Assembly (NCBI RefSeq): GCF_000829035.1
Contig: NZ_AP012541.1
Span: forward strand, 2,852,001 to 2,916,000
Length of the DNA: 64,000 nt
Reading direction: 5' to 3'
DNA from: Lacticaseibacillus paracasei subsp. paracasei
Lineage (GTDB): Bacteria; Bacillota; Bacilli; Lactobacillales; Lactobacillaceae
In this document: positions 1,027 through 62,543 of the stretch, piece after piece
Numbering within the stretch: the stretch's first letter is position 1
Layout of the letters: every line of letters starts with the position of its first letter
The notes under the pieces: generated by a model
What the model was told of the DNA's origin: nothing
The model's database searches: none
What the model saw: only the letters and a program-made list of their open reading frames with translations
Made by a program: the position numbers and the translations under genes

Positions 1027-4000
1027 TGGGGAACTGAACAACTATCAATTCAGTGCCCGTGCGGTGATTGATCGTTACAAAAAAAACGATATGCCACTGG
1101 GATGGTTTCTTCCTAATGACGGTTACGGCGCCGGTTATGGTCAAACTAATACGCTGGCTGGCAACCTAAAAAACCTCAAAGATTTTGCGGATTATGCCGG
1201 TAAGGAAGGTGTCGAAGTCGGTTTATGGACACAGCAAAATCTGTCGCCAGTTGACCCAAATAAACCTAAGCCGGATGATCGCGATTTTTCAAAAGAAGTC
1301 GCTAATGGTGTTAAAGCTTTGAAGACCGATGTTGCTTGGGTCGGTGACGGTTATTCTTTTGGGCTGGATGGGCTTGAAAAAGCCGACAACATGATGAAAA
1401 AAGTCAAAGGCGATAACTTACGGCCTTTTGGCATCACATTAGACGGTTGGGCTGGCACACAGCGTTATGCTGGTATTTGGACTGGCGATCAAACTGGTGG
1501 CCAGTGGGAATACATTCGTTTCCACATTCCAACCTACATCGGCACCGGTTTGTCGGGCCAGCCATACGTTGGTTCCGATATGGACGGCATCTTTGGCGGC
1601 GGAAATTCAATTGTCAATGCTCGTGACTTTCAATGGAAGGCCTTCACGCCAATTCAACTCAACATGGATGGCTGGGGCAGTAATCCAAAAACCCCATTTT
1701 CTTTTGATCAACATACGACTGATATCAACCGAGCCTATACCAAGCAAAAGACGATGCTCATGCCATATAACTATACCGCCTCTGCCCAAAGCGTTTTTGA
1801 TGGCAAGCCGATGGTTCGCGGTTTATTCCTTGACTACCCAAATATGCCTGAAGCTTACACGGACTTGGTTAAGTACGAATACTTATGGGGTGACAACTTC
1901 TTGGTTGCACCAATTTACCAAAATACCGCTTCAGACGATCAAGGCAATGATGTCCGCAATGGCATCTATTTACCGGACAAGGATCAGGTATGGATCGACT
2001 ATTACACTGGTAAGGAATACCGCGGCGGTCAGGTTTTGAACAATTTTGAAGCTCCCTTGTGGAAACTGCCTGTTTTCGTAAAAAAAGGTGCTATCATTCC
2101 GACTACACCGGCACATAACACGCCTAAGGAAATGGATCAAACCAAGCGACAATTCCAAATTTTCCCAATGGCTGGCAAGCAAGACTTTACCGTCTATGAA
2201 GATGACGGTATCTCTCGAAAATATCTAAAGGGTGCCTACGCGGAAACCAAAGTGACAAGCAACCTGCAAGAGGGTCAGCTTGAGGTCAATGTGGCACCCC
2301 TGTCAGGTGATTACACAGGTTTGAAATCCGAACGAACAACCGAATTTGCTATTCGCACGAGTGGCAATCCCAGCAATGTCATTGCAACTGTTGGCAGTCA
2401 GCAAGTCGCTTTAAAAGCAGTCACCAATCAGAAAGACTATGATGCCGGCGAAAATGTTTACTTTGTGAATAGCGAGTACCACACCAATCAGTATCTCGAA
2501 AAGTTGACCGACAAGAAGGCTATTGACCAACCCTTCCTCCAAGTCAAACTTGCCAAAACAAACGCGGCAACCAATGGGATCAAGTTAACTGTCTCTGGTA
2601 TTGATGCTAAAGATGATCCGTCAACCGACGATCTGCCAGTGAATGACGAATTGGCGATCCCAAGCACAATCAAACAAGATGAAAAGACGACAACAGACAC
2701 CGCGGTTGGCATCAACTGGTCGCCTGTAACAGACGCATTAAGTTACGACGTCAAAGCTGACGGCGTGGTTTATCGCAGTCTCAAAAAACCAGCATTCGTT
2801 TTGTCACCGGTTAAAGAACAAACTAAGCACTCGTTCCAAGTACGAACGGTCACAAAGGATGCCGTGTCGAAATGGAGTGATAAACAAACCTTTAGCTCTG
2901 ATGAAAATCCGTTGCGCTTAGCTCTGAAAATGACCAACTTGAAAGTCGATTCAACCATTAAGGATGTCCCAGTATGGCAAGGCAAACAAACGGTCGATAA
3001 ACTTTTTGATCAAGACTTAACCACCGAAGCCCACACCAACTGGTTTACCAGCGGCGAGAAGCAGTCGGCAACGCCGATGACGATTACCGCTGACCTAGAC
3101 GGTGTCTATGATCTCGATCATCTCACCTACGTACCGCGAGAAAATGGCGGCAATGGTAATCTATCAGCATTGAAAGTTGAAACCAGTCTCGATGGTATTC
3201 ATTAGCATGAAGCTGGTGAAGGCAAAGGGTGGACATTTGATGCTCAAGAAAAAACAATTTCTTTTGGCCAAAAGGAAAAAGCCCAGCACATTCGGCTCAC
3301 CATCCCTAAGGCATCAACGCTAGGCGACTTTGTTTCAGGCAAAGAATTTCTGCTATTTAAGCGTGACGGTACCAACAAACAAGTATTAGGCGATATTACC
3401 AACGATGGCGCGATTACTGGTGATGATCAGATGTCGCTCGTGAACTATGCTGGTTTGACAGCTAATATCGACAGTGACTTCAATGGTTACGTTCAAAATG
3501 GCGATTTAAACCAAAACGGTGTGATTGATGCATTTGATATCAACTATGTGATGACCAAACTCGGCAAAACACCAGTATCCAAACCAGATGAGAAGATTCC
3601 AAGCGGCACCCTAGCCTTGCAGTCTGATAAAACCACTTATGCCCCTGGCGAAACCATCACGCTCAATTTGATTGGCAAGGATCTGACAAACGTTAATAGC
3701 TTATTCGCCCGGTTGCCATTAACCAACCCAAATGTTGATTTAATTCAGGTCGAACCCACTGCTGCAACCGCAGGTATGGTCAACTTCAGCAAAGTCCGCA
3801 CGCATTCGAATAGCAGTCGCGACCTATATCTCATTTTCGCAAATGAAGGGGAACAAAAGCGGCTCACTGGCAATGAAAAACTGGCAACGATCACACTTAA
3901 AGCAAAAACACAGTTAACGAAAGCCGATCTAAGCTTTGCTTTGACTGATCCAATGCTTACCAACCAGTGGGGACCAGAGGCTTTGCCGGAAGCCCCAGCG

Positions 4001-5293
4001 CCAATTGTGCTGCGTCCTGAAGACAATTCAGAGCATAATCATGCTAAAGAGCAGCTAGCGGCATTGATTGATGCTGTGCATGCCCTCGATCCGAAGCTAT
4101 TCACCGCCACCAGTTGGCAACCTGTCCTTGCAGCCAGTGAAAAAGCCAGCCAGTTGCTCAAAGATGACGCTGTGTCCCCATCTGATCTCACAGCTGCCTA
4201 CATTGATCTCAAAACCGCATTGGGCAAACTGGAAGCAGATCGCGGTGTCAATCAAGACCAACTGAAAGCACTGATCACAGCAGCTGCAACACTAAAGGCA
4301 GACCGTTACACGCCCGAAAGTTATGCCAACTTGCAAACCGAAATAACCGCTGCAAAGACCGTTAGCACTGATGCCGGTGCCTCACAGAAACAGATTCAGG
4401 AGGCCATTCAATCACTTAGTCGTGCTTGGTTTGCATTAGTCCTCACGCAGACACAGCCGCAATCCGACTTAGCACAGTGGGTAAGAGTTGCAGAAGCCTT
4501 AAATCCTGACCAATACACGCCTGCCAGCTTTGACAAGTTGACCGCAGCTCTAGCAGAAGCAAAAAAGGCGCTTGCTGATACAGCAACGTCTGCTGATACA
4601 GCTCAAACCTTGTCAACTCAACTACAAGCCGCCATCGATGCTCTTGTGCCGCGCGGAAATAAACAACAACTGGCCGATTTGCTAAACACCGCCGAGAAAC
4701 TAAAGGCAAATGATTATACCCCTGGCTCCTTTGCAAAATTGACGGAGGTTTTACAGCCAACCCGCAACGTTTTGAACGATGTCGATGCAACTCAAGATGC
4801 AGTGACGAAGGCAACAGATGCCTTGAGCAAAGCGCTTCAGCAACTTATCAAGCAGCCGAACAAGGCTGAACTCGTCAACGTGATCACCAAAGCAGCAGAA
4901 CTAAAGGAGACAGACTATACACCTGCCAGTTTTGCTGATCTAAAAAAGGCATTGACGTATGCCCGAGAAGTGAACAAAGATCCAGAGACTTCTGGGGAAA
5001 CAGTTGCAAAGGCAGTAACTGACTTAAAGACTGCGCTCGACAAACTGGTCAAACAAACACCGGCTCCCACTCCTGATAAAGAAAAGCCAAGCAATAACCC
5101 GCCTAAATCAGGCGGCTTCCAAGGTGACACCACGATTAAAAAGGGCCAGACAAAAGATCCAACCAAGACCGATCATGCCAGCAACATCCCCGATACTGGC
5201 GAACATACCCAATCAACCCTGGCACTACTGGGCGCGACCATCATCGGCGTACTGGGTTACTTGAAGCTACGACAACCTAAAAAAGACAAATAG
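1027..5293 (+). pseudogene. Wall-anchored multidomain GH31 glycosidase, 5'-truncated by IS30 and with internal stop
   Basis: One reading frame continues from the IS junction to 5293, broken only by TAG at 3203-3205. The first part (from about 1064) is a GH31 catalytic domain (KTDVAWVGDGYSFG, WTGDQTGGQWEY, GSDMDGIFGGG) and C-terminal beta domains. A fibronectin III-like segment and an F5/8 type C (CBM32-like) domain follow; the stop lies inside the latter. After the stop come a dockerin-like calcium repeat pair (GDITNDGAITGDD, GDLNQNGVIDAFD), a cohesin-like domain (about 3600-4020), five FIVAR-type three-helix repeats (about 4040-5060), and a sorting signal IPDTG with a hydrophobic segment and KKDK tail. 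The signal peptide and N-terminal mutarotase-like domain are missing. The architecture suggests action on host glycans; GH31 alpha-N-acetylgalactosaminidases have similar modules, but substrate is an inference. Confidence 0.85.
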
Positions 5294-5357
5294 CTACTCC
5301 ATGACTCATCTCAGAAAGTGAAACAGCTTCATGAGATTGGGATAGTCTTCATAGCCA

Positions 5358-5406
5358 CAAAAAGAACGAATGAGTTTTCTCAAATAGGGGAAACTTATTC
5401 GTTCTT
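5358..5406 (+). terminator. Intrinsic terminator after the GH31 pseudogene
   Basis: Inverted repeat AAAGAACGAATGAGTTT / AAACTTATTCGTTCTTTC with a short loop, about 70 bp after the stop codon. The right arm ends in a T-rich run. Confidence 0.7.
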
Positions 5407-5432
5407 TCTTATATATAAATGAATAGGATTTA

Positions 5433-5628
5433 AAGATTCCAGTACCAAGGCGGAGCAATCGTAGGCCAGATGGGGCTCAGCCGTGCAAACAACACAGCGA
5501 CGGGCCTTGGAACTGATGTTGTTAGGCGACTTCGAGACCGTTTTTTGGGCTCGAAGCGCCGTCTCCGCTCTAGCTTCGCGTCGCCACCCCAGCTGGCCGG
5601 AGATTGCGGAGTTTGGCACGGCAAAGAA
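5433..5628. repeat. 196-bp folded dispersed repeat, copy A
   Basis: About 85 percent or more identical by eye to 49141-49337. It is internally symmetric: GGCCAGATGGGG near the left end pairs with CCCCAGCTGGCC near the right. Two inner hairpins are formed by AACAACACAGCGAC with its partner and by CTTCGAGACC with GGGCTCGAAG. It sits in the gap between two convergent genes and has no credible coding content. Confidence 0.85.
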
Positions 5629-5706
5629 AATCCTGTCTAACATCTTTTGTATCCCGCGTAAAATTGTCCTTCCAAAATCATTAACACCTTTATAAATCAC
5701 TCAACC

Positions 5707-6492
5707 TCACAAAAACCGATCCCGTTTCTCCTGAAAAGCTTGCACAATAAGGTGCCCAACCTGTTGACTAAATTGCATAGCCGTCTGCCGATCATAATCA
5801 AATTGTGTCAGCACCACCGCATACAAGCGCTCACCTTCAGCGGCAAAACAGGCCGCATCATGTTCGCAATGAGGCAACTCGCCAGTTTTACCGGCTAGCC
5901 AACCGACGAAGTTTTCCATGGTCGGCGCTAACAGCAGCTTGGTGCGGTTTTGCTGATGCCGCAGGGCTTGGGCACAGATATCCGCTGCCGGTTCGTTGCC
6001 GTCCGACGTTAACAAAGCGCGCAATAGTTGCCAGGCAGCGCTTGCGGTGATCATATTATCGCCATCAAAGGTTGATTGCATCAAGGGTCGCCGTAGTTGG
6101 ACGCCAGAATAATGCCGAGTTAGCCATGCTGCAATGGTCGGCAGCCCATACGTGGTTAATAGCGCATTGGTAGCCAGATTATCCGATACCGTGAGCATCA
6201 ACGTCAGCAAATCACGCACGCGCCAAGCTTGTGGTGACATGAAACGTAAAACACCTGCCCCACCGACCGATTCCGGAAGCGTCACTTGCCGCTCGAGTTG
6301 GCTGGGATCATCTGCCGCTTTTTCCTTTACAAAGGCGGCAATGCCCAGTTTGATCAAACTAGCAGCGGGAAATGGTTGATCAACCTGCGCGCCAAACAGC
6401 ACATGCCGGGTATCAGCAACCAGCAAGGCGTGTTTTTCGTCAAATTTCTGATTCACTTGATCAAGCCGTGTCACGATTTTATCAGGCGTCAT
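5707..6492 (-). CDS. Class A beta-lactamase-fold serine hydrolase, cytoplasmic
   Basis: A 261-aa protein (MTPDKIVTRLDQ) with the three active-site motifs of class A penicillin-interacting enzymes: SLIK at 45-48, SDN at 103-105 and KTG at 202-204. It has no signal peptide, so it should work in the cytosol. The omega-loop Glu needed for beta-lactam deacylation (Glu166 in TEM numbering) is not evident; the segment reads LMQSTFDGDN. It is the last gene of the MurNAc-peptide operon and overlaps the epimerase stop by 11 bp, which fixes the start at 6492. The likely role is an amidase or peptidase acting on muropeptides rather than antibiotic resistance; this is inference. Confidence 0.8.
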   Translation of the reverse strand: MTPDKIVTRLDQVNQKFDEKHALLVADTRHVLFGAQVDQPFPAASLIKLGIAAFVKEKAADDPSQLERQVTLPESVGGAGVLRFMSPQAWRVRDLLTLMLTVSDNLATNALLTTYGLPTIAAWLTRHYSGVQLRRPLMQSTFDGDNMITASAAWQLLRALLTSDGNEPAADICAQALRHQQNRTKLLLAPTMENFVGWLAGKTGELPHCEHDAACFAAEGERLYAVVLTQFDYDRQTAMQFSQQVGHLIVQAFQEKRDRFL

Positions 6493-7549
6493 GCATAGGA
6501 TCTCCAATTGTAAGCTGTGGCCCGTTCGTTTGAATGCCTGCTTGCTGCTTTTTGACCATGTAGACCGCGTCCAAATCTGTGAACGTAACATTATCATGAA
6601 CCGCGGCAAACGCGATCGCCGGCACCAGACTCAGGTTACTTTCGATCATACACCCAACCATGGTCGTCACGCCAAAAGACGCGCAAGCTGCATCGATCTT
6701 CGCAGCCTCCGCCAAACCGCCTGTTTTCATTAGTTTGATATTGATGTGATTGACTGCGTGGCGACTGAGTAATGCCAGCGCATCTTGAAACCCAAAGACA
6801 CTCTCATCCGCCATGATTGGTAACTGTCGCATAGCAGTCAACGTTGCCAAGCCTTCGTGATTGCGCGCAGCAACTGGCTGTTCAATAAAATCTATCGGTA
6901 ACTGCAAAGCCGCCAGTTCGGTCACCGCAACCTTGGCTTGATCAGTTGTCCATGCTTGATTGGCATCGAGACGCAGGCGAATATCAGGGCCTGCAGCTTT
7001 GGCAATCGTTTTGACGCGCTCCAAATCATCTGCCAATCGACCACCACCGACTTTGATTTTTAAAGCCTTAAAGCCTCGGGAAACAAATGCCTTCGCTTCG
7101 CTTACCATATCGGGCAGCACTTGAATCCCAATCGTCATGTCAGTCGTGACCGTTCGCTGTTGACCACCGAGTAACGCTGTCAGCGGGATGCTAACCTGCT
7201 TTGCACGCAAATCATAAAGTGCCAATTCAACCGCTGCAATGGCGGGTTGCTCCGATGTGCTGGCATGAAGCCGCGTCAGCAAACTATTCCAGTCTCGGAT
7301 GTCACGGCCAATGAGTGCCGGTATCACCTGTGTCTGCAAGTTTTCCTGCAAGGTCGACATCGTATCACCTGTCACCACCGCGTTGGGGGTGCCGGCGCCA
7401 TGACCAACTGTGCCATTTGTCAGCAAAACGTCAACTTGAACAGCATCCGCAGCCGTCACGGTATGCATCGCTGTTGTGAAAGGCCGCACCAGCGGTAAAC
7501 TGATCGGCCGTAACTGTATTTTTTGAATAATTGGTTCTAATCCGGCCAT
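6482..7549 (-). CDS. L-Ala-D/L-Glu dipeptide epimerase, enolase superfamily
   Basis: A 355-aa member of the muconate-lactonizing subgroup of the enolase superfamily. The catalytic KxK lies in KALKIKVGGG (Lys164, Lys166). Metal ligands fall in DANQAW (Asp195), FIEQP (Glu223) and MADES (Asp248), and a further Lys is in NIKLMKTGG (Lys272). This set matches Ala-Glu epimerases (YkfB/YcjG), which convert L-Ala-D-Glu from peptidoglycan into L-Ala-L-Glu for normal dipeptidases. It overlaps the upstream hydrolase by 13 bp and the downstream one by 11 bp, so it is translationally coupled. Substrate assignment rests on motifs and on murQ in the same operon. Confidence 0.85.
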   Translation of the reverse strand: MAGLEPIIQKIQLRPISLPLVRPFTTAMHTVTAADAVQVDVLLTNGTVGHGAGTPNAVVTGDTMSTLQENLQTQVIPALIGRDIRDWNSLLTRLHASTSEQPAIAAVELALYDLRAKQVSIPLTALLGGQQRTVTTDMTIGIQVLPDMVSEAKAFVSRGFKALKIKVGGGRLADDLERVKTIAKAAGPDIRLRLDANQAWTTDQAKVAVTELAALQLPIDFIEQPVAARNHEGLATLTAMRQLPIMADESVFGFQDALALLSRHAVNHINIKLMKTGGLAEAAKIDAACASFGVTTMVGCMIESNLSLVPAIAFAAVHDNVTFTDLDAVYMVKKQQAGIQTNGPQLTIGDPMHDA

Positions 7550-8559
7550 GAAGTCGCCACCTCGAAAAATTGGGTTAATAACTGGCGCCTAACCGCCAAC
7601 CATGCACGATTGGCGCGGCTAGGATAGATTCGATTGGTCAAACAGACAAATCCGCGCTGGGTATCACGATCAAATGCTATTGATGTCCCTGTAAACCCAG
7701 TGTGCCAGTATTGATGACGTCCTTGCGCCCAACAGCGCCAGCCGAGTGTCCGACCGCCTTTACAAAAGCGGTCAAGCAGCACAAACGCCGCTGGTGGCAG
7801 AACTTGATCGCCATTTGTCACGGGCAGACCAGCCAACAACCGTGTGAAAATAGTCAGATCCGCAAGCGTGGCGAACAACCCTGCATGACCACTAACCCCA
7901 TCCAGTAAAAAGGCTTTATGGTCGTGAACTGTCCCACGAATGATGCCACCGCGAGCAGGCACGTTTTCGGTTGGCACAAAATCGGCTGCAGCCACGTGTT
8001 GCGGTCGATAACCGGTCGCATGCATGCCCAGTGGTGCAAAAATATGTTGCGTCAGGCTTGTTGCCAAATCACCATCGAGTGCAGCAATCGCCCAACCGAG
8101 TATGATGTAGTTCAAATCCGAATAAATCGTCTCAGTGTCTGGTGCAGCGACAGCAGCCATTGTTTTGACGGCATGAATCAGCCCCGCTTGATCGAGCGCA
8201 TGGGCATCAGGGACATCTGCTGGCAAGCCACTGCGATGCAGCATGAGTTGTTCAATCGTCAGTTGTGGGTAGCGCAAACCGCTGACCAACGAGCCAATGG
8301 GTTGGGTTAATTCTAACTTGCCGGCTATAAGCAACTGCAGCAGTCGGGTGGTCGTGCCGACAACTTTCGTCAACGACGCCAGATCATACCGCGCTTGCGG
8401 CAACAACGGCAGCCGGTCATCCCCGGCACCTTGGTAGCCGATCACATGCAAGGCATTTTCTTGCGGGCCAAGCAGACTATACGACACGCCGAAAACCGCG
8501 CCATCAGTTATCGCTTGGTTAACCGTTGGCAGCAAAGCTGTTTGCTTATTTGTGCCCAT
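7537..8559 (-). CDS. Beta-lactamase-family serine hydrolase, AmiE-like muropeptide amidase candidate
   Basis: A 340-aa protein of the serine beta-lactamase (class C/esterase) family: SLTK at 62-65, Tyr-Ser-Asp at 146-148 and His-Thr-Gly at 286-288. It starts at MGTNKQ, overlapping the murQ stop by 14 bp; a longer upstream frame has no support. In Bacillus subtilis the murQ-murR cluster carries amiE, a beta-lactamase-family N-acetylmuramoyl-L-Ala amidase. The same fold in the same gene context suggests this protein releases the peptide from MurNAc(-6P)-peptides. Unlike secreted AmiE it has no signal peptide, so it would act after PTS import. A D-aminopeptidase or esterase function cannot be excluded. 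Confidence 0.75.
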   Translation of the reverse strand: MGTNKQTALLPTVNQAITDGAVFGVSYSLLGPQENALHVIGYQGAGDDRLPLLPQARYDLASLTKVVGTTTRLLQLLIAGKLELTQPIGSLVSGLRYPQLTIEQLMLHRSGLPADVPDAHALDQAGLIHAVKTMAAVAAPDTETIYSDLNYIILGWAIAALDGDLATSLTQHIFAPLGMHATGYRPQHVAAADFVPTENVPARGGIIRGTVHDHKAFLLDGVSGHAGLFATLADLTIFTRLLAGLPVTNGDQVLPPAAFVLLDRFCKGGRTLGWRCWAQGRHQYWHTGFTGTSIAFDRDTQRGFVCLTNRIYPSRANRAWLAVRRQLLTQFFEVATSWPD

Positions 8560-9463
8560 GCTTGGCCTCCCAAGCCGCCAAAACTGCACTGATAACACCA
8601 TCATGATCCGCCAAGACCTGCGTTGCATCGGCGGCATCCAGCTCGGTTTTAGCCATCACAATTGCGACTGGGACCTTATATCCCGCTGTTTTCAGCAAGG
8701 TTGCAGCTTGGATTTGATCAACGCCGGTTGTGGCCGCAATAATGCGTTCTGCGCGATCAACCAACTTGGCATTGGTTGGCAAAACATCAACCATTAAGTT
8801 TTCAAAAACCTTCCCGGCGCGAATCATGACCCCTGTCGACAACATATTCAGAACCATCTTTTGCGCAGTCCCAGCTTTCATGCGTGTTGATCCGGTAATC
8901 ACTTCCGGGCCAACAACTGGGGCAATGGCGATATCCGCATGTTGTGCCAAGACACTGTCAGGGACACAGGCCACCGAAATCGCAAGCGCTTTGGTTTGTT
9001 GCGCAAATGCTAAAGCTCCGATCGCATACGGCGTCCGGCCAGATGCGGCAATCCCGATAACCGTGTCATTGGCGTTCAAATTCAGTCTTTTGAGATCATG
9101 CTCGGCTAGCTCCGCAGAATCTTCCGCGCCTTCAACCGACTTGAACATGGCCGACATGCCGCCAGCAATTAGCCCGACTGCCCGCTCTGGCGGAATACCA
9201 TAAGTTGGTACGAGTTCAGCTGCATCCAAAACTCCCAAACGGCCAGAAGTGCCCGCCCCGGCATAAATCAACCGGCCGCCACGATTATATCGTTGCCCGG
9301 CAGCATCGATTGCCGCGGCAATGTGGCTATTTTCTTTGGCGATTGCTGGTGCAATTTTTGCATCTTCAGCATTAATCAACGCCACCAAATCAGGCGTTGT
9401 CATTGTGTCGATGTGTGTGCTGGCCGGATTTCTTTGCTCGGTCATTAAGTCTGCGATTGACAT
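8546..9463 (-). CDS. murQ: N-acetylmuramic acid 6-phosphate etherase
   Basis: A 305-aa SIS-domain protein. It carries the MurQ signature GAGTSGRLGVLDAAE (residues 69-83, with the catalytic Glu83) and PEVITGSTRMKAGTAQK. MurQ removes the D-lactyl ether from MurNAc-6-phosphate to give GlcNAc-6-phosphate, the committing step of MurNAc catabolism. The start at 9463 has a good RBS (GAGGGG, 6 nt upstream). The 5' end overlaps the rpiR-type gene by 74 bp. It lies between the regulator and the AmiE-like hydrolase in the PTS operon and is the strongest pointer to the operon's substrate. Confidence 0.95.
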   Translation of the reverse strand: MSIADLMTEQRNPASTHIDTMTTPDLVALINAEDAKIAPAIAKENSHIAAAIDAAGQRYNRGGRLIYAGAGTSGRLGVLDAAELVPTYGIPPERAVGLIAGGMSAMFKSVEGAEDSAELAEHDLKRLNLNANDTVIGIAASGRTPYAIGALAFAQQTKALAISVACVPDSVLAQHADIAIAPVVGPEVITGSTRMKAGTAQKMVLNMLSTGVMIRAGKVFENLMVDVLPTNAKLVDRAERIIAATTGVDQIQAATLLKTAGYKVPVAIVMAKTELDAADATQVLADHDGVISAVLAAWEAKHGHK

Positions 9464-10322
9464 ATTTTTCCCCTCGAATCTTTAACTCACTTGTCAATTG
9501 TGACGTTGCGCGATAATTCTGCTCAGTTTTTTTGATCTCACCTTGAACGACCCCCAGAAAAAGAATGTTCGCGACATAAGTCTCCGTGAACATTGAGGTC
9601 ACCGCACCGATTCGCAACAACGGTTCTGTCGGCGGCAAGGCAATCACGCAACTTGCCGCTTCACGCAACGGACTCGGCTCGTGCCGTGTCACTGCAATTA
9701 CAGGCGTTTGGTTTCGCCGCGCTTGCTGAGCCGCCAATACGACCTCTTTAGTCAAACCGCTGTATGAAAAAACGACCATGGCATCGGCCGGTGTCGTATA
9801 ATAAGCGCGCTCCACTGCCGTGTGGGTGTCGTGGTCAAAAATGGCCACGTACCCAGCGCGAATCAATTTCAAATAAAGATCCTGAGCAACTAGGGCGGAA
9901 GCACTGACTCCCACCAAATAAATATGACGTGCCTGTCGCAGCGTTGTAATGGCTGACTGCACGGCAGATTGATCCAACTCATCAGGCAAATCACGCACTG
10001 CGGCAATCGCAGTCTGGCTTAATTTATGCATCATGGTCGACAAGTCGTCGTCATCCTGAACCAGCGGATCAAGTGGCATCACCTCTGCAGGTAACGTCTT
10101 TTCCCGTGCGAGAGCTAGTTTAAACGACTGCAGGTCGGCAAACTCAAATTGACGAACAAACCGAATGACAGATGCGGCCGATACCCCGCTTGCGTGGGCA
10201 ATCTGCGCTGTTGTCTGTGCGATAAAAGTCTCAGGATCGGTTATAACATGACGAGCCAAAGCTTGATTCACCGGACTTAATTGCGACAGACGCGACTGCA
10301 ACGTCTCTAAGATTGTCTTCAT
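9390..10322 (-). CDS. RpiR/MurR-family transcriptional regulator
   Basis: A 310-aa protein with an N-terminal RpiR helix-turn-helix (about residues 1-75; AHASGVSAASVIRFVRQF) and a C-terminal SIS sugar-phosphate-binding domain (about 125-255). Family members sense phosphosugars; MurR proteins respond to MurNAc-6P. Its start overlaps the EIIB stop by 4 bp (10319-10322). The C-terminal tail is basic and runs 74 bp into murQ, which is unusually long and could be a late frameshift extension. Two TGAAA-N5-TTTCA palindromes upstream of the operon (12591-12646) are the likely operators, implying autoregulation. Confidence 0.88.
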   Translation of the reverse strand: MKTILETLQSRLSQLSPVNQALARHVITDPETFIAQTTAQIAHASGVSAASVIRFVRQFEFADLQSFKLALAREKTLPAEVMPLDPLVQDDDDLSTMMHKLSQTAIAAVRDLPDELDQSAVQSAITTLRQARHIYLVGVSASALVAQDLYLKLIRAGYVAIFDHDTHTAVERAYYTTPADAMVVFSYSGLTKEVVLAAQQARRNQTPVIAVTRHEPSPLREAASCVIALPPTEPLLRIGAVTSMFTETYVANILFLGVVQGEIKKTEQNYRATSQLTSELKIRGEKYVNRRLNDRAKKSGQHTHRHNDNA

Positions 10323-10804
10323 TCGGCCTTATCAATAAAAGTTGCGATGGACGTTGCACTTTCGTTGGGAACCATTTGCGCAGTGATGGTGACTCCCTGT
10401 TTCAATAAGCGCCGAATAATCGCAATATCGTCTGGTGATACGGCAACGGAAGGCTTGATTTTCTTAGTGCCTGGTTTTTCCGACAAGTTGCCAACGTTAA
10501 AGGCCTTGATTGGTACGCCGCCATCAATCAACTTCGCCATATCGGGAATATTTCGAGTAATGACAAAGACTTGATCATCTGCAAATTTGCCATTCTGCAA
10601 ATTCTCGATGGCTTTGGCAACGGAGCTAATTGCTAGTTTTTTCCCTGCTGGTCGGGCGATTTTCAAACCTTGAATCGCCATCTCATCGCGTACCACCTCA
10701 TCGTTAACCACCATTAAGCGGTTAGCGCCGACTGTGTTCGTCCAGACCATCGCTACTTGGCCGTGAATCATCCGTTCGTCAACACGTGCTGCCACAATTG
10801 TCAT
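10319..10804 (-). CDS. PTS mannose-class EIIB component
   Basis: A 161-aa PTS EIIB of the mannose/sorbose/N-acetylgalactosamine class (PF03830 type). The phosphorylated His is His14 in VDERMIHGQVA. The start MTIVAARVDERM is chosen because AAGGAAG lies 6 nt upstream; an earlier in-frame ATG has no RBS. It receives phosphate from an EIIA and passes it to the sugar moving through EIIC/EIID. No EIIA gene is present in this operon, so it must be supplied elsewhere. Confidence 0.92.
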   Translation of the reverse strand: MTIVAARVDERMIHGQVAMVWTNTVGANRLMVVNDEVVRDEMAIQGLKIARPAGKKLAISSVAKAIENLQNGKFADDQVFVITRNIPDMAKLIDGGVPIKAFNVGNLSEKPGTKKIKPSVAVSPDDIAIIRRLLKQGVTITAQMVPNESATSIATFIDKAE

Positions 10805-10870
10805 TAGAATCTTCCTTTCAAACAACACGGGCCGATATCATCGCGCCCGTGTTTTTCGCCTATCATGATT

Positions 10871-11707
10871 TTAAACTAAACTACCGATCCAGCCGAAGAT
10901 GGCGCCCAGATTGCCCAACACCATCCCGATCAGAATCAGGACAAAAATTAGTCGCGTTGAGTTCATATGCTTGCGACCCAGAATCCAGTATGAGAACAAG
11001 GCAATTGCTAGTGGAATCAGTGCTGGCATAATTTTATCAAGCATGTCTTGCACATTCATCGTGACCTTGCCGACTTTATAGGTCAGGTCAAGCTTGTAGT
11101 TGATAACCGCCGGAATCATCGCGCCAACAACCGTTAACCCAAGGATAGAAGCACCTTCCGTGAAAGTCGCCATGCTATCCGCAAAGGTTGTTGCCAGCCG
11201 GGTCCCTTGTGACAAGCCAACTTGGAACAATTTCCAGCGAACCCATAAAATGACCAAGCAACCAATGACCGGAATGAGTAACCCGATTGGTTGATTCGAC
11301 AAAGCTAGATATGCGGTGATCGAATAGATAATCGCATTGTAAATTGCCACGAAAATCGTATCACCGACGCCAGCGAACGGACCCATCAAGCCAGTTTTCA
11401 GACCAGTGATCGCTTTTTCATTCTCATCGTTCATTCCCAACTGATCCTGCAAAGCAACATCCGCGCCGACAATTAAGTGTGCCATTTGCGGCGTGGTGTT
11501 GAAGAAGCCCATTTCCATGTTCAGGGCTTGTTTCATTTTCTTAGGATCGTCTTTATACAACCGTTTCAAAGCTGGCATGACAGAGTAGGCATAGCCAAGA
11601 CCTTGCATTTTTTCGTAGTTCCATCCCAATTGCAGACCCAACACGTTTTGAATGAAAATCTGCTTGAGATCTTTTTTAGTTATCTTATTTAATTTCAGTT
11701 CAGACAT
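10871..11707 (-). CDS. PTS mannose-class EIID component
   Basis: A 278-aa membrane component of a mannose-class PTS. Recognisable EIID features are FIQNVLGLQLGWNYEKMQGLGYAYSVMPALKRLY, the amphipathic GLMGPFAGVGDT motif, and hydrophobic C-terminal segments. The start at MSELKLNK (11707) overlaps the EIIC stop by 8 bp, which indicates translational coupling. It forms the translocation channel together with EIIC. Confidence 0.93.
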   Translation of the reverse strand: MSELKLNKITKKDLKQIFIQNVLGLQLGWNYEKMQGLGYAYSVMPALKRLYKDDPKKMKQALNMEMGFFNTTPQMAHLIVGADVALQDQLGMNDENEKAITGLKTGLMGPFAGVGDTIFVAIYNAIIYSITAYLALSNQPIGLLIPVIGCLVILWVRWKLFQVGLSQGTRLATTFADSMATFTEGASILGLTVVGAMIPAVINYKLDLTYKVGKVTMNVQDMLDKIMPALIPLAIALFSYWILGRKHMNSTRLIFVLILIGMVLGNLGAIFGWIGSLV

Positions 11708-12536
11708 CGATCTCGACCTCCTCATCGGAATCATCGCCGCCGTTGCTGCCGCCATTGTTATGGTTGCTTGGGCCGTGGTTATTCGATTCGTTGCGCTTGC
11801 GGTCGTTGGCATCTAAAACATGTAGTGCCGCGAAGACGAAGCCAACCAGCGCTGTGCCCAGCAAGGAGAATGTTTTCGTGAAATAAGCCATTAAAACAAA
11901 TCCGAGAATGAAATATGGAAAATAGCGTTTGAGTGGCAGATACCGCATCAGGATCGCGATCCCCATCGCTGGTAAGATAATCCCGGCTGTTTTCAAACCA
12001 ACCATCAACCATGCTGGGATCCAAGCGTTGATCGCTTTAACAACCGCGGAACCGAAGAACAAACCAACGAAAACCGGTAGCATTCGTGAAACTGTCCACG
12101 GAATAATCCCGTAAAGGTTATTGCGCTCAACCCCTTTATAGTCGCCTTTTTCAGCTAAGCGGTCAGCGTGATGTTGGAAAATTGTGTTCGTCATCCGCGC
12201 CAAAATATCCATTTGTGTCAGCAGTAAGCCGATTGGAATCGCCAAGCCAATTCCATAAGCCGCGCCCCGACCCGACATGATCGCAAAGGCACTGCCCATG
12301 ATGGATCCAGAAAGAAAGTCAGGAACGGTTGCACCGCCATACGTTGCAACCCCCAATGTGGCTAATTGCAGCGTTGCGCCGACAATCAAGCCGGTTTTGA
12401 GATCACCCATAACTAGACCAGTTACCGCCCCGCCAAACACTGGCGAGAATAATCCGATCTTAACAGACAATGCATCAAGTTGTGCAATGCCCACATAGAT
12501 CGTCAAGAAAATAAGTGCAAAAGCAGATATTGACAT
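11700..12536 (-). CDS. PTS mannose-class EIIC component
   Basis: A 278-aa polytopic membrane protein, first gene of the operon. N-terminal hydrophobic helices (MSISAFALIFLTIYVG), KIGLFSPVFGGAVTGLVMGDL and GATLQLATLGVATYGGATVPD are typical of mannose-class EIIC. The C-terminus is a hydrophilic Asn/Ser/Gly/Asp-rich tail. The start at 12536 is set by GGAGGGG 9 nt upstream; an ATG 36 bp earlier has none. Substrate is inferred from murQ and the peptide-processing genes downstream: MurNAc or a MurNAc-peptide. Confidence 0.92.
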   Translation of the reverse strand: MSISAFALIFLTIYVGIAQLDALSVKIGLFSPVFGGAVTGLVMGDLKTGLIVGATLQLATLGVATYGGATVPDFLSGSIMGSAFAIMSGRGAAYGIGLAIPIGLLLTQMDILARMTNTIFQHHADRLAEKGDYKGVERNNLYGIIPWTVSRMLPVFVGLFFGSAVVKAINAWIPAWLMVGLKTAGIILPAMGIAILMRYLPLKRYFPYFILGFVLMAYFTKTFSLLGTALVGFVFAALHVLDANDRKRNESNNHGPSNHNNGGSNGGDDSDEEVEIDV

Positions 12537-12590
12537 GATCTTTCCCCTCCCTAATAGGATGTCATGAATCAAGTCAATTATGCCGCCATA

Positions 12591-12663
12591 TGAAACTGTA
12601 TTTCAAGTATTTGCGTAAGAATAATTGACATTGAAATTTAGTTTCTTAAAAAAACAGCGTCAA
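12591..12663 (-). promoter_or_regulatory. Promoter with two RpiR-type palindromic operators for the MurNAc-peptide operon
   Basis: Two matching inverted repeats lie upstream of the EIIC gene: TGAAACTGTATTTCA at 12591-12605 (perfect 5-bp arms) and TGAAATTTAGTTTCT at 12632-12646 (one arm mismatch). Their centres are 41 bp apart, close to four helical turns. On the minus strand TTGACG (12658-12663), a 17-bp spacer and TAAATT (12635-12640) make a plausible promoter whose -10 overlaps the second palindrome. RpiR proteins commonly bind repeats of this kind; binding by the operon's own RpiR is inference. Confidence 0.6.
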
Positions 12664-12863
12664 TACGGGTGTACCATTTTCTAAAAAAAGGCTTACTTCA
12701 TATGAGACACAGCAGCATTCTTCTGTACTACAACAGGTAGCGGGCGCATCTTATTTCTTAAAAAGAATTTTTTGAAATTAACCATCATGACGATGCTTTC
12801 TCAGTCCACTTTGTACAGTTTGCCGAAAAAAACGCCGCCTCATGGACGAGGTTAGTAAGCCTG

Positions 12864-13931
12864 TTATTGTAATTGGAACTTTAACACCACCGGATTGTGA
12901 TCGGAATACTGGAAACCTGTCGAAACGACATGCACACTTTCAGCTTTAATATTAGGCGAAAGAATATAGCCATCGATTAACGTCACAAAACTTTTACCCG
13001 GTTGATACGGTTGATCCAAGGCTCGAACTGACGGCACGGCAGCCTTGGCCAAGCCCATGGTCGGGATATGAAAACCTGCAGGGAGTTTGGACTTCGGGAA
13101 AAGATGGGTCCACGTTTCATCAAGATCTTTTGTGTGGAAGATTTCAGCGGTATTTTTTAACAAGCGATGATTGTAGTCGCCAGCAACCATCACATAATTA
13201 CCTTGCTGATACGCTTGTTCGATATATTTAAACAACTTGGTGAACTGTGCCTGCTGAATCTTGACGTTCGGTGTGAATGCTGACATATGAATGTTGACCA
13301 TGACGAATTGTTTACCATTCGCCACCGTGGTTTTGGTTGCCGTAAAAGCTCGGTCCAGATCAATGATTTTGTTAAAATCAGTGTCCACTGGCAAACTGTA
13401 GCGCCGGGAGCTATCGACCTTGGCTTTACTTAACGTTAGAATACCGGACTTCGCTTTGCCGATCGGTTGGGTGAACGGGTAGAACAAGTAAGCCGAATCA
13501 TAATTCTGACCGTATATATTGGCGTATTGTTGCTGCGCCCCAGTGACCATCTTCACTTCATTCACATGTTGTGATCGATCACCATCCGGATCAATTTCCT
13601 GATAGAAAGCAACATCAGGATTTTGCGCCTGCGTGGTTTTGATCACACCATTAATGCTGGTACGCACGGACTTTTTACTGTAGGCTCGCGAATATTTGCC
13701 GCCATCCATGAAAAAACTATAACTTGGCGGGTAGGAACCATACCCGATATTGTAAGTCATCGCCGTATAAGTCTGGCCCGGTTTAAACTGCGTACTTTGT
13801 TGGTTCTTCACTTTTAGCGCCTGATCATCAGGCACGCGATAATAAGTGGTGAATAAATAAATCAAATATCCGCCGGCGGCCAACAACAAGACACCGAGAA
13901 TGCCGCCAACCCATTTCAAAATTCGTTTCAC
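12864..13931 (-). CDS. Membrane-anchored endonuclease/exonuclease/phosphatase-family protein
   Basis: A 355-aa protein with one N-terminal membrane helix (ILGVLLLAAGGYLIYLF) and an extracytoplasmic EEP-fold hydrolase domain. Metal and active-site motifs include MTYNIGYG, FYQEID, VNIHM, VAGDYNH and SDHNPVVL. EEP proteins are metal-dependent phosphodiesterases or phosphatases acting on nucleic acids or phospholipids; the substrate here is unknown. The start is taken as GTG at 13931, which has GGGAGG 6 nt upstream. It is transcribed alone, divergent from the NrnA-like gene. Confidence 0.82.
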   Translation of the reverse strand: MKRILKWVGGILGVLLLAAGGYLIYLFTTYYRVPDDQALKVKNQQSTQFKPGQTYTAMTYNIGYGSYPPSYSFFMDGGKYSRAYSKKSVRTSINGVIKTTQAQNPDVAFYQEIDPDGDRSQHVNEVKMVTGAQQQYANIYGQNYDSAYLFYPFTQPIGKAKSGILTLSKAKVDSSRRYSLPVDTDFNKIIDLDRAFTATKTTVANGKQFVMVNIHMSAFTPNVKIQQAQFTKLFKYIEQAYQQGNYVMVAGDYNHRLLKNTAEIFHTKDLDETWTHLFPKSKLPAGFHIPTMGLAKAAVPSVRALDQPYQPGKSFVTLIDGYILSPNIKAESVHVVSTGFQYSDHNPVVLKFQLQ

Positions 13932-14033
13932 CGTCGTTCCTCCCAAAATAGTTGTTTTGCTTATTATAGCAGTTGTCTTTTCCTCTGAGACCAGTACTAT
14001 GAGGATAGACTTTTTTATAAAAAGGGGATCGCC

Positions 14034-14966
14034 ATGTCGACTGAAACTGACAGCATTTTAGCTGCTTTCGAAAAATTCAACACCATTATTATCCATCGTC
14101 ATATTAATCCTGACCCTGATGCGATTGGCTCACAAACCGGATTAGCCTTGCTGCTGCGTGCCGCTTATCCTGCCAAAACCATCTACACAGCGGGACCGGC
14201 CGCCCCCGATTTAGCTTGGATCGGACCACAACAACAAGTGTCCGCTGAAGCTTACACTGGTGCGCTCGTCGTTGTGATTGATACTTCTAATCGCGAACGC
14301 ATTGCCGGTGATCATTTTGATCAAGGAGCGATGCTGATCAAAATTGACCATCATCTGGATGAAGATCAGCTTGGCACCATCAACTGGGTTGACACCCATG
14401 CTTCCAGTGCATCAGAGATGGTGTGGGACTTAGTACGTCACAGCCCACAGCTGCAACTCACCAAAGCAGCCGCCACAGCACTCTACGCAGGCATTATTGG
14501 TGACACTGGCCGTTTTCTGTATGATTTAACAACCGCCCGCACCCACCAAGCTGCTGCTGACCTACTTGCAACCGGCATCGATGCCGCCGCAATTGGCCGT
14601 CAAGAAGACCAGTTCCCGGAAAATGTTGGCCGCTTGATTGGTTGGGCCTTAGAAAATGTCAAAATCACTGACACTGGCGCCGGATCGCTCCTCATCACAA
14701 AGGCCCTGCTCGCCCAATTTGGCCTTGCGTATGGCGAAGAACAGCGCGCAGTCGGCAATATCGGCAAGCTAGCCAGCATTGATCGCTGGGTGGTCTTCAC
14801 CGAACGAACTGATGGCAGCTATCGGGTTGAACTCCGCGGCAAAACCAAAGAAATCAATACGCTGGCCGTTCAACACGGTGGTGGCGGCCATCCGCTGGCA
14901 AGCGGCGCCGTGGCAGATAATGCTGCTGAACTTCATGCTATTGAAGAGGAACTTGCATCGTTATAA
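14034..14966 (+). CDS. DHH/DHHA1 phosphoesterase, NrnA-like oligoribonuclease/pAp phosphatase
   Basis: A 310-aa two-domain protein. The DHH domain shows HRHINPDPDAIGSQ, VVIDTSN and IDHHLDED (Mn-binding); the C-terminal DHHA1 domain ends with HGGGGHPLASGA. NrnA proteins degrade short oligoribonucleotides and dephosphorylate 3'-phosphoadenosine 5'-phosphate; related proteins cleave cyclic dinucleotide products. Length fits NrnA. RBS AAGGGGATCGCC precedes the ATG. It appears monocistronic. Confidence 0.88.
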   Translation: MSTETDSILAAFEKFNTIIIHRHINPDPDAIGSQTGLALLLRAAYPAKTIYTAGPAAPDLAWIGPQQQVSAEAYTGALVVVIDTSNRERIAGDHFDQGAMLIKIDHHLDEDQLGTINWVDTHASSASEMVWDLVRHSPQLQLTKAAATALYAGIIGDTGRFLYDLTTARTHQAAADLLATGIDAAAIGRQEDQFPENVGRLIGWALENVKITDTGAGSLLITKALLAQFGLAYGEEQRAVGNIGKLASIDRWVVFTERTDGSYRVELRGKTKEINTLAVQHGGGGHPLASGAVADNAAELHAIEEELASL

Positions 14967-15141
14967 GGTGTCCTGAAGAATGGTAATGGCCCAGACGAAT
15001 GATCTAAACCCCAAAGCCAGAGCGTTGCCTCATTTCTAATGGATAGCTGTTGTGATAACGACTGGTAGACTTGGTTTTCAAAAAATACGGTAAAATATTA
15101 GAATCGAGGAAAAGTTGACACGTACTAGTGTGTTTTCTACC

Positions 15142-15243
15142 TTGTCAGTCAACAAATCCATGATATAATGACTTTGGTTTAGAAAAACTTTTACGGTCAC
15201 ATCACAATAGCCGTTTCCCCTGTACGGGAAACGGCTATTTTTT
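15142..15243 (+). ncRNA. Antisense RNA antitoxin of a type I toxin-antitoxin locus, with promoter and terminator
   Basis: Promoter TTGTCA (15142-15147), 16-bp spacer and TATAAT (15164-15169) predict a start near 15176. An RNA of about 65 nt would end at the hairpin 15206-15239 plus T-run. The RNA begins with TTTAGAAAA-N6-ACGGTCACA (15178-15201). The same pattern with the same spacing occurs at 15375-15398 across the start of the convergent toxin gene. The RNA is therefore complementary to the toxin mRNA at its start codon as well as at the shared terminator, the layout of Fst/par-type antitoxins. Confidence 0.78.
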
Positions 15244-15301
15244 TCACCCGCTGCGATAAATCGTGGACGACGGGCGTGTGGGTTGAAGGCAACTGCAAAG
15301 A

Positions 15302-15397
15302 CTATCGCCGATCATTCAACCTATGTTCGAGCAGCAGGAGTACCACTCCCACAATGAGCGGGGCGATAATCTGATTTAGAAAATCAATCACGGTCAC
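15302..15397 (-). CDS. Type I toxin, Fst/Lpt-like 31-aa membrane peptide
   Basis: The peptide is (M)TVIDFLNQIIAPLIVGV followed by VLLLLEH and a charged RLNDRR tail: one membrane helix with the conserved Pro, as in Fst/Ldr-type toxins. The start is GTG at 15397, preceded by a strong GGGAGGGGGG. A minus-strand extended -10 (TGCTATAAT, 15428-15433) would give a short leader of about 25 nt. Convergent transcription with the antisense RNA at 15142-15243 shares the terminator hairpin. Expected action is membrane damage when unpaired with antitoxin. Confidence 0.82.
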   Translation of the reverse strand: MTVIDFLNQIIAPLIVGVVLLLLEHRLNDRR

Positions 15398-15545
15398 ACC
15401 CCCCTCCCAGGGCAGTTGCCATGTTTGATTATAGCAAAGGTTGTGGGACAGACATAGATAAAGAGAAACTATAACGAACGTTTTTTATCCATTTAGTTTA
15501 AAAACGTTGCTAATATGTTCCTATTCCTATCTAATTTTATCCCTA

Positions 15546-16295
15546 TTAATTCTTTTTTGCTAAAACAATAAATCGGTCTTCAAACGTTGTCACGCTACCT
15601 TGGCTATCGATGATCTTCTGAAGTTGATGCAACTGCGGCATTACTTTTTTTACATCAAAATCCGGAAACTCCCATGGAATAACCGTGGCATAATAAACAA
15701 TTGCGCCAACATCAGTGAAATTCATTTTCACAAAGGCCGCGTCTGATTTCAGAATCTCGAAGCCCGCTTCCCGCAACTCGGTCATAACTTGCGGTAAATT
15801 ATTATCTGGAAAAGCTGGTACATAGTTGGCATTCAAAAACCGTGACAGACTGTAATTATTAGTTGCGCCGACTTGTTGTGAGATAAAGAGACCATGCGGC
15901 CGCAACACACGGGCAATGTCGCGTATCGGCAAACCGCCGTGACTGTTGGTGACAATGTCAAAATGCTCATCAGGAACCTGCGCCAATCGTTCTTCTGGAT
16001 CCGGATATAGCGTAACGCCTTGCGGTACCAACGTGCGTTTTAACAGATCAATATTAGGTTGCCAACCTTCTGTGACGGTTGTTTTTTCGACAGGATGCTG
16101 AAAAGTCTGCATTAATTCACCACCGCCTGTGTCCATATCGAGCCACTCATCACTTGGCTTCAAATGTCGACGAACCCAGGCCGAATAATTCCACGGCAGT
16201 TCTTCGGTTTGGCAACGTCCCTTTAAATGGCTAAAGTCCCAGCCACGCATGGCCTGTTGACTTTCAGCAAGCCACTCTGATTCGATTGTCTGCAT
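15546..16295 (-). CDS. Class I SAM-dependent methyltransferase
   Basis: A 249-aa protein with a Rossmann methyltransferase layout: EWLDMDTGGGELM (motif I, SAM binding), DIVTNSHGGLP (motif IV region) and ARVLRPHGLFISQQVG. The target is unknown; the family includes small-molecule and rRNA or protein methyltransferases. Start chosen at MQTIESEW, with AGAGGG upstream. It stands alone on the minus strand after the SMR gene. Confidence 0.75.
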   Translation of the reverse strand: MQTIESEWLAESQQAMRGWDFSHLKGRCQTEELPWNYSAWVRRHLKPSDEWLDMDTGGGELMQTFQHPVEKTTVTEGWQPNIDLLKRTLVPQGVTLYPDPEERLAQVPDEHFDIVTNSHGGLPIRDIARVLRPHGLFISQQVGATNNYSLSRFLNANYVPAFPDNNLPQVMTELREAGFEILKSDAAFVKMNFTDVGAIVYYATVIPWEFPDFDVKKVMPQLHQLQKIIDSQGSVTTFEDRFIVLAKKN

Positions 16296-16374
16296 TGTGT
16301 CATCCCTCTTCATCACGTCGTTACACCAGCGTTTTCATGAGGTCAGTTTACCACTATACCCAACCATCTTCGCC

Positions 16375-16695
16375 TTAATCGCCGCTCGTCACTTTAATCC
16401 CAATGATCCCAATCACAAGCAGTGCGATGAAGAACCAAGTCGCTGGTTGCAGTTGATCTTTAAGCAGGACCACACCAACAATAATCGATCCGACAGCGCC
16501 GATCCCGGTCCAAACCGGGTACGCCAGACTTAATGGCAGATGTTTAACGGCAAGGGCCAAGAACCAAAAACTTAAAACCATCCCGGCCAAAGTCGCTAAC
16601 GTAAATCCCAAACGACTAAAACCATGCGACATTTTCATAAAAGTTGCCCAAACGACTTCAAAACCACCTGCTAAAACTAAATAGAACCACTGCAT
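16375..16695 (-). CDS. Small multidrug resistance (SMR) family exporter, SugE/Gdx-like
   Basis: A 106-aa protein with four predicted membrane helices. It has the essential membrane-embedded Glu13 (GGFEVVWATFMK) and the SMR signature LSLAYPVWTGIGAVGS. SugE/Gdx members export guanidinium or quaternary ammonium compounds as dimers driven by proton exchange. RBS GAGGAGG precedes the ATG. A strong hairpin lies 43 bp upstream and may insulate or attenuate expression. Confidence 0.9.
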   Translation of the reverse strand: MQWFYLVLAGGFEVVWATFMKMSHGFSRLGFTLATLAGMVLSFWFLALAVKHLPLSLAYPVWTGIGAVGSIIVGVVLLKDQLQPATWFFIALLVIGIIGIKVTSGD

Positions 16696-16738
16696 GAATG
16701 TGTCCTCCTCGTATCATTTTGCAGCCTCAAAACAAAAA

Positions 16739-16793
16739 GGCGACAGTATACGCAACCGCTGCATTGACCTAATGCGGTTGCGATACTGTCACC
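16739..16793 (-). terminator. Long hairpin upstream of the SMR gene
   Basis: Near-perfect inverted repeat of about 25 bp per arm (GGCGACAGTAT...ATACTGTCACC, inner arms CGCAACCGC/GCGGTTGCG). On the minus strand it is followed by CTTTTTGTTTT, so it should terminate transcription of the gene at 16866-17120. Only 43 bp separate it from the SMR start codon, so it may also act as an attenuator. Confidence 0.7.
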
Positions 16794-16865
16794 CGGTAGT
16801 GACTGCTATTTAAATAAATGTTGATGTTATTTTTTCACATATTGACAACTGCGTCAAGGAAATTG

Positions 16866-17120: not shown

Positions 17121-17292
17121 AACGCTACCCCATTTCGAGCGCATACCTTAGTTATTTTGCAAAACATTCTATCCGTACTTCTTAACCATATTATGTCTTC
17201 ACTTGATCCAAGGCACCATTTTAAACAGCTTTGCCAATCAGCAGCTCTGTCCATCCCAGCACAAAACCCGCTCTAATCGCAACATTCATTGA

Positions 17293-17952: not shown

Positions 17953-17988
17953 CTCATCCTCCAGATTTAAAATGTTGGGCGTTACTTT

Positions 17989-62526: not shown

Positions 62527-62543
62527 GTTTGTCAACCTCCTTC

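Follow-up and report, generated by a model that had tools for sequence, protein, structure and literature searches.

A window of 64,000 bp from the Lacticaseibacillus paracasei subsp. paracasei genome (contig NZ_AP012541.1, positions 2,852,001 to 2,916,000; genome G000, 3.018 Mb in three contigs) contains eight genes at 5707-12536, all on the minus strand, in which a mannose-class phosphotransferase system (PTS) is joined to MurQ and to enzymes that fit the breakdown of N-acetylmuramic acid (MurNAc) peptides. The window is the whole stretch analysed, and coordinates refer to it unless a locus is named. Each protein was assigned by Pfam and NCBIfam matches, as follows.

11700..12536, minus strand: EIIC, membrane subunit of a mannose/sorbose-class PTS, 278 aa (PF03609 EII-Sor, 1.6e-70)
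10871..11707, minus strand: EIID, membrane subunit of a mannose-class PTS (PF03613 EIID-AGA, 5.7e-84)
10319..10804, minus strand: EIIB, mannose class, with a His within RVDERMIHGQ (PF03830 PTSIIB_sorb, 9.6e-49, and the motif)
9390..10322, minus strand: RpiR/MurR-family regulator with HTH_6 and SIS domains (PF01418, PF01380)
8546..9463, minus strand: MurQ, MurNAc-6-phosphate etherase (TIGR00274, 362.6 bits, cut-off 302)
7537..8559, minus strand: AmiE-like class C-fold serine hydrolase with SLTK, YSD and HTGFTGTS motifs (PF00144, 7.6e-38; alignment; N-terminal hydropathy)
6482..7549, minus strand: L-Ala-D/L-Glu epimerase-like enzyme (AEE) of the enolase superfamily (MR_MLE N- and C-terminal domains; 1JPM, 1.8e-69)
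5707..6492, minus strand: ClA, a class A beta-lactamase-fold serine hydrolase with SxxK, SDN and KTG motifs (PF13354, 1.6e-34; 2J7V, Tll2115, 1.9e-9)

Neighbouring genes overlap by 4-74 bp at six of the seven junctions. The exception is a 66 bp gap between EIID and EIIB, so the initial annotation of eight overlapping genes stands as to genes, strand and place, and as to overlap everywhere except at this junction. EIIC, EIID and EIIB score far above the Pfam cut-offs of the sorbose/mannose families and make up a mannose-class (EII-Man) PTS, not a glucose/beta-glucoside class EIIBC of the MurP type. The histidine in the EIIB motif is presumably the phosphorylated residue.

Conservation of the operon and its transporter

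The same eight-gene order is present in a second genome of the genus (L095, genome G262; 42-80% identity) and in a genome of another genus (L104, G027; 34-80% identity), which rules out a chance assembly of the genes. Among 30 genomes of the genus, eight (the window and L092-L098) encode an EIIC of at least 63% identity, and in all eight loci EIIC, EIID, EIIB, RpiR and MurQ lie on one strand within approximately 6 kb; MurQ was not found in the four examined loci of the genus with EIIC identities of 50% or less (L099-L102). Three of the eight loci (L092, L093 and L094) have seven of the genes and lack AEE, such that AEE is missing from three of the five genus loci in which this PTS is accompanied by AmiE and ClA. 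The ten EIICs that are linked to murQ and/or amiE (the window, L092-L098, L104 and L106) form a single clade with a support of 1.0. We also note an unrelated gene inside the EIIC-EIID-EIIB-RpiR-MurQ run of L096 (9432-11384, genome G248); its 651 aa product contains endonuclease/exonuclease/phosphatase, F5/8 and Big_2 domains.

The operon shares its EIIB, EIIC and EIID architecture with the mannose-class amino sugar systems of the Aga/Gam type, and the best NCBIfam score of its EIIC is to AgaW, the model for an N-acetylgalactosamine (GalNAc) EIIC (173 bits, below the cut-off of 300). This could suggest a system for some other N-acetylated amino sugar, GalNAc-like for example, in which MurQ and the hydrolases would have related lactyl or acyl sugars as substrates. 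We regard this as very improbable, however, given that MurQ exceeds its curated cut-off and is present in all eight genus loci of the EIIC clade. Unlike the Aga/Gam type, the window operon has no EIIA gene and is linked to MurQ and AmiE.

The association was also approached from the epimerase rather than from the transporter. A murQ search of 251 genomes gave 110 positives, and 80 of these were searched with the window AEE, which matched in 29; as the genomes were selected for murQ, the presence of murQ in them is no test. Neighbourhoods were taken for the eight other genomes with an AEE identity of at least 38% (L103-L110), and in six of them AmiE adjoins AEE (L103, L104, L105, L106, L108 and L109); of the other two, L107 stops at a contig edge and L110 is an operon of the ykf type. 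Although these loci were found through AEE, all six AmiE-AEE loci have PTS genes in the run, of the mannose class in L104, L105, L106 and L108 and of the lactose class in L103 and L109, and ClA comes next in all except L108. The EIICs of L105 and L108 belong to other clades and have their own EIIA. PTS genes are paired directly with AmiE-AEE, with no local MurQ, in L106, L108 and L109, and L106 has kept ClA as well. Among 21 loci with lower AEE identity, 1.5 kb flanks contain a weak AmiE match (27%) in one and a ClA match in three, and an AEE scan of the genome contigs gave two distant loci. The transporters thus swap while the AmiE-AEE pair stays. The coupling of AmiE-AEE, mostly with ClA, to mannose- or lactose-class PTSs suggests that a peptide-bearing MurNAc compound is the most likely substrate. 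A neighbourhood survey for co-occurrence of this PTS with the epimerase and hydrolases had been named as a check in the initial annotation, and such co-occurrence is supported.

A variant of the same catabolic set is seen in another lactobacillus (L152, 4835-10343), in which AEE, ClA and MurQ are found with a MupG protein, a BcrAD-type ATPase and an esterase, and AmiE and a lactose-class EIIC adjoin on the other strand.

The genome has two murQ genes. The copy outside the operon (L039) likewise has an RpiR-family regulator and a PTS for neighbours, but the transporter is a single-chain EIIBCA with an EIIA domain, and no hydrolase or epimerase is seen in the run. The EIIBCA scores 327 bits against the MurNAc transporter model NF007152, below its cut-off of 516. 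A relative of this EIIBCA is beside or near murQ in 25 of the 30 highest-scoring murQ loci of the 110 positive genomes (1.5 kb flanks), and the mannose-class arrangement is therefore the less usual one. Because a separate MurR-MurQ-MurP-like locus is present, the window operon is a second, additional system, and we lean towards its being the cell's second MurNAc system, specialised for peptide-bearing MurNAc. An insertion in a murQ promoter (LSEI_0120), which PMC5890138 lists for L. paracasei under heat stress, may concern the L039 locus.

The initial annotation described the PTS as lacking its own EIIA, and tblastn with six EIIA-man queries (E 1e-3) indeed found no match around the operon, in window 4001-20000. 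The same queries showed that EIIA-man is missing from nine of the ten loci of the EIIC clade (the window, L092-L098 and L104), with L106 carrying its own EIIA just upstream of EIIC. This distribution makes borrowing from another system plausible. Six EIIA-man matches lie elsewhere in the genome. One of them (L003) was rejected as a donor, as it sits in a cluster that we take to be DhaKLM. The ManL-type system proposed as the lender is a possible one; its EIIAB gene crosses the window end, with the EIIA part beyond 64000, and its EIIC and EIID lie inside at approximately 61615-63359. PTSs without an EIIA are ordinary: Bacillus subtilis MurP lacks one, and glucose-family EIIAs are described as serving four other EIIA-less B. 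subtilis transporters (PMC6148471). The C-terminal tail of the window EIIC (11700-11800) is unusual in being rich in Asn, Gly, Asp and Glu.

The epimerase and the two serine hydrolases

The nearest solved relative of the window AEE is the B. subtilis enzyme (1JPM, 1.8e-69). Residues K164, K166, D195, E223, D248, K272, D325 and D327 are invariant in the alignment and correspond to the catalytic lysines, the Asp/Glu/Asp metal ligands and the C-terminal DxD. The score against the equivalog model NF041118 is 215 bits, with a cut-off of 500. Arg24 of the B. subtilis enzyme binds the Glu side chain of the substrate, and this position is occupied by His29 in the window AEE. Histidine is found here in all eight AEEs linked to a PTS and AmiE (the window, L095, L103, L104, L106, L108, L109 and L152), together with a GCM motif, while all 15 distinct AEE genes that neighbour an NlpC/P60 gene encode Arg, together with GSM or GTM; the broken L105 gene was excluded from the comparison. 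The split is blurred by L157, which has His and GCM and lies near genes for a peptide-binding protein and an M20 peptidase; His and GCM are also present in L107. Distant AEEs fit neither type, with Gly in L090 and L244 and Tyr in L240-L242. The His-type AEEs form one clade with a support of 0.96, and the change may have been a single event.

The three loci without AEE retain a trace of it, consisting of 26-50 bp of one part of the gene, in the spacers between AmiE and ClA:

L092:10149-10290: AEE remnant
L093:7531-7662: AEE remnant
L094:9581-9795: AEE remnant

The remnants score 49, 60 and 37, respectively, compared with 28, 29 and 28 for the highest of 300 shuffles, so the gene was once present and has since been lost. 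Both the histidine and these losses weaken the earlier claim that the epimerase fixes the peptide as L-Ala-D-Glu.

The AmiE-like enzyme combines the PF00144 fold with the motifs that characterise AmiE (SxxK, Y-x-N/D and HTG). Its N-terminus is not hydrophobic in the way of an exported protein; in a simple hydropathy window, which is a crude test, AmiE reaches 1.38 and ClA 1.19, compared with 2.32-2.81 in four lipoprotein controls. AmiE is therefore probably cytosolic, which puts cleavage after uptake, within the cell. One of its relatives adjoins MurQ (L225), others adjoin RpiR-type genes, and the D-amino acid amidase 2DNS, a carboxamide hydrolase, is also among them. An AmiE-like paralog adjoins murT in this genome (L228:4870-5934, G000:C1:1144935-1145915) and in several other Lactobacillales genomes.

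ClA carries SxxK, SDN and KTG/KSG motifs, and its N-terminal hydropathy, which gives no sign of a signal peptide, suggests that it too is probably cytosolic. A beta-lactamase was considered and rejected, since the 11 aligned sequences share no omega-loop Glu in the stretch from R135 to N146, although each has an acidic residue (Asp or Glu) immediately ahead of N146, and since the score against the class A beta-lactamase model NF033103 is 38.9 bits, below the cut-off of 200. The nearest solved relative is Tll2115 (2J7V, 1.9e-9), which we take to be a PBP-A-type DD-peptidase. Structure prediction of ClA alone gave a mean pLDDT of 45.8.

The ClA profile matches 80 of 395 genomes of the order, with AEE within approximately 1.1 kb in 21 of the 80. 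Several contexts are operons of the ykf type for murein peptides, which contain AEE, an NlpC/P60 endopeptidase and ClA, mostly with a peptide-binding protein (SBP5) and in some cases an S66 peptidase. These resemble the window operon in having AEE and ClA together (L142, L149, L150, L154, L155, L159, L160, L232 and L233), but a peptide permease and NlpC/P60 replace the PTS, AmiE and MurQ, and their AEE has Arg at position 24; neither an NlpC/P60 endopeptidase nor a peptide-binding protein is encoded by the eight window genes. S66-AEE-NlpC-ClA runs are found in L234 and, interrupted by a single gene, in L232 and L233; ClA-NlpC-SBP5 runs without AEE in L141 and L143-L145; and contexts without AEE, NlpC, SBP5 or S66 in L153 and L156. 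Except for that of L105, the ClAs encoded at PTS/AmiE loci group together with those of L153 and L156 in one clade, with a support of 1.0.

Two minor contexts are noted. The relatives in L153 (8536-9297) and L156 (8356-9150) lie near DUF4931 genes with no epimerase near, the former also near a glycerophosphodiesterase and an RpiR-type gene. In L240, L241 and L242, ClA occurs with the distant dipeptide epimerase that has Tyr at the Arg24 position, and in L240 an M20 peptidase lies between the two.

Deamidation by ClA had been proposed in the initial annotation, in which case it would be a D-isoglutamine (iGln) amidase, converting L-Ala-D-iGln to L-Ala-D-Glu for AEE, a single step compatible with import of peptide-bearing MurNAc. 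MurT is found in 22 of the 25 Lactobacillales genomes tested (and in 3 of 55 other Bacilli), and the carboxamide hydrolase among the AmiE relatives likewise favours an amidase. However, ClA and AEE are at most approximately 1 kb apart in G404 and G350, where no MurT match was found, and ClA shares a run with S66-AEE-NlpC in G684, G763 and G714, which are MurT-negative as well. Unless the ClAs of the PTS-linked clade are a case apart, this counts against an amidase dedicated to isoglutamine, and we consider such a role unlikely.

Still less probable is that ClA removes D-Ala from longer stems as a carboxypeptidase, in which case the imported compound would be a MurNAc-tri- to pentapeptide. The similarity to Tll2115 and the presence of ClA in murein-peptide permease operons would be consistent with this, but an S66 LD-carboxypeptidase coexists with ClA in G684, G763 and G714, and the window operon lacks the NlpC/P60 enzyme for the Glu-Lys bond that would be needed to produce the dipeptide substrate of AEE. 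Because of the same coexistence we also rejected the idea that ClA simply replaces YkfA, the S66 carboxypeptidase. The retention of ClA where AEE has been lost argues against an enzyme that acts only after AEE. Most of its contexts share the L-Ala-D-Glu(iGln) dipeptide, and our tentative first guess is accordingly a hydrolase of dipeptides or an amidase of broad specificity.

Regulation by a putative operator pair

Upstream of EIIC lie two palindromes of the form TGAAA-N5-TTTCA, a motif chosen after the window was seen, each with no more than one mismatch:

12591..12605, minus strand: putative proximal operator palindrome TGAAATACAGTTTCA, kept in the six clade operons with RpiR and AmiE
12632..12646, minus strand: putative distal operator palindrome AGAAACTAAATTTCA, lying upstream of the proximal palindrome at a distance of 41 bp

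A pair with a spacing of 40-41 bp is present at the same place in L092, L093, L094, L095 and L104, and thus in all six operons of the EIIC clade that have RpiR and AmiE. L092-L094 are close kin, and L095 and L104 provide the fairer test of conservation. Block shuffling of each upstream region, 5000 times, never produced such a pair, and scans of the whole loci (13.7-16 kb) showed that L092-L095 and L104 each hold a single one, upstream of EIIC. The pair was not found in the whole loci L096, L097, L098, L103, L105, L106, L108, L109 and L152, of which L103 and L108 have regulators of another type. The best promoter-like match is TTGAAA-18-CATAAT at 12606-12577, in a region with 14 such matches observed and 8.9 expected; its -35 is covered by the proximal palindrome, which suits repression. 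We infer that both palindromes are binding sites of RpiR at the promoter, and that the sugar phosphate probably relieves the repression.

A candidate route for peptide-bearing MurNAc

That the operon is a second MurNAc system specialised for peptide-bearing MurNAc we hold to be slightly more likely than not, and the proposed mechanism is as follows. Extracellular hydrolases would free muramyl dipeptide (MurNAc-L-Ala-D-iGln/Glu) or a comparable MurNAc-peptide, and EIIB-EIIC-EIID, phosphorylated by the EIIA of another mannose-class system, would bring it in as the 6-phosphate. With a cytosolic AmiE-like enzyme, import would precede cleavage of the MurNAc-L-Ala bond; MurQ would then convert MurNAc-6P to GlcNAc-6P and D-lactate, AEE would invert the Glu residue of the released dipeptide, and ClA would most likely hydrolyse this dipeptide or its amide, the amino acids entering metabolism. 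The disaccharide-dipeptide with L-Ala-D-iGln that L. casei p75 is described as making (PMC3288076) is a possible source of the substrate. A narrower form of this reading, put forward tentatively and at somewhat less than even confidence, is that the mannose-class PTS imports and phosphorylates intact muramyl dipeptide, which is then broken down entirely in the cytosol by AmiE, MurQ, the His-type epimerase and a class A-fold dipeptide hydrolase, other PTS classes having been recruited to the same enzymes in other lactobacilli.

Several observations weigh against uptake of peptide-bearing MurNAc. For the exo-N-acetylglucosaminidase that would have to free MurNAc-dipeptide from the disaccharide, one GH3 gene was found as a possible candidate, and we know of no PTS that carries a glycopeptide. 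The histidine at the Arg24 position of AEE is a further point against, and the deletion of AEE with retention of ClA in three close kin indicates that the dipeptide branch is not indispensable. The window AmiE is only 27-37% identical to its relatives in the 29 loci of a class search, and an extracellular site of action is reported for B. subtilis AmiE (PMC5061867). L096-L098 have the same transporter clade with EIID, EIIB, RpiR and MurQ and gave no match to AmiE, AEE or ClA, such that the transporter may take plain MurNAc.

The last point leads to an alternative in which plain MurNAc, or else a MurNAc disaccharide, is the compound that the PTS imports, and the peptide enzymes act on dipeptides brought in by peptide permeases, their link to MurNAc use being one of co-regulation only. 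The occurrence of AEE and ClA in peptide-permease operons with SBP5 and NlpC/P60 would fit this arrangement too. We nevertheless find it doubtful: the genome already has a MurP-like locus, AmiE would be left without an intracellular substrate, and uptake of plain MurNAc does not explain the PTSs paired with AmiE-AEE in the loci without MurQ (L106, L108 and L109). The initial annotation had proposed uptake of MurNAc or of intact MurNAc-dipeptide, a route that is supported in part: the PTS, MurQ, the fitting enzymes and the missing EIIA have held up, the epimerase as a determinant of substrate is not supported in the form stated, and deamidation by ClA is weakened.

The proposed route has partial counterparts among known systems. 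The B. subtilis operon murQ-murR-murP-amiE-nagZ-ybbC similarly brings together MurQ, an RpiR-family regulator, an AmiE-type hydrolase and an EIIA-less PTS, but MurP is a glucose/beta-glucoside class EIIBC, AmiE and NagZ are reported outside the cell, and the six genes include neither an epimerase nor ClA, both of which the window operon has (PMC5061867, PMC6148471). The mupG-murQ-murP-murR system of Staphylococcus aureus is alike in that a larger MurNAc compound, MurNAc-GlcNAc, is taken up and phosphorylated by a PTS and split inside the cell before MurQ acts, and no EIIA partner is known there either; it differs in having an EIIBC MurP, a peptide-free disaccharide and a glycosidase in place of the amidase (PMC6262408). 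Neither a mannose-class PTS with MurQ nor PTS uptake of a MurNAc-peptide was found in the titles and the starts of abstracts among the literature matches listed, and a search aimed at a MurNAc-dipeptide PTS found none. A MurR regulon in lactic acid bacteria is listed in PMC3616900, and an earlier in silico prediction of the operon within it is possible.

If the proposal is true, the operon would represent a PTS route for a peptide-bearing sugar, and MurNAc salvage would not be confined to the glucose-class MurP. Lactobacilli would then be able to feed on muramyl dipeptide, the cell-wall fragment that the host receptor NOD2 recognises, and a candidate function would be provided for the unnamed, probably cytosolic class A-fold hydrolase that is often beside dipeptide epimerases in Bacilli.

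Adjoining the operon, in convergent orientation, is a gene (3431-5293) for a 620 aa FIVAR-domain protein with an IPDTG anchor-like motif.

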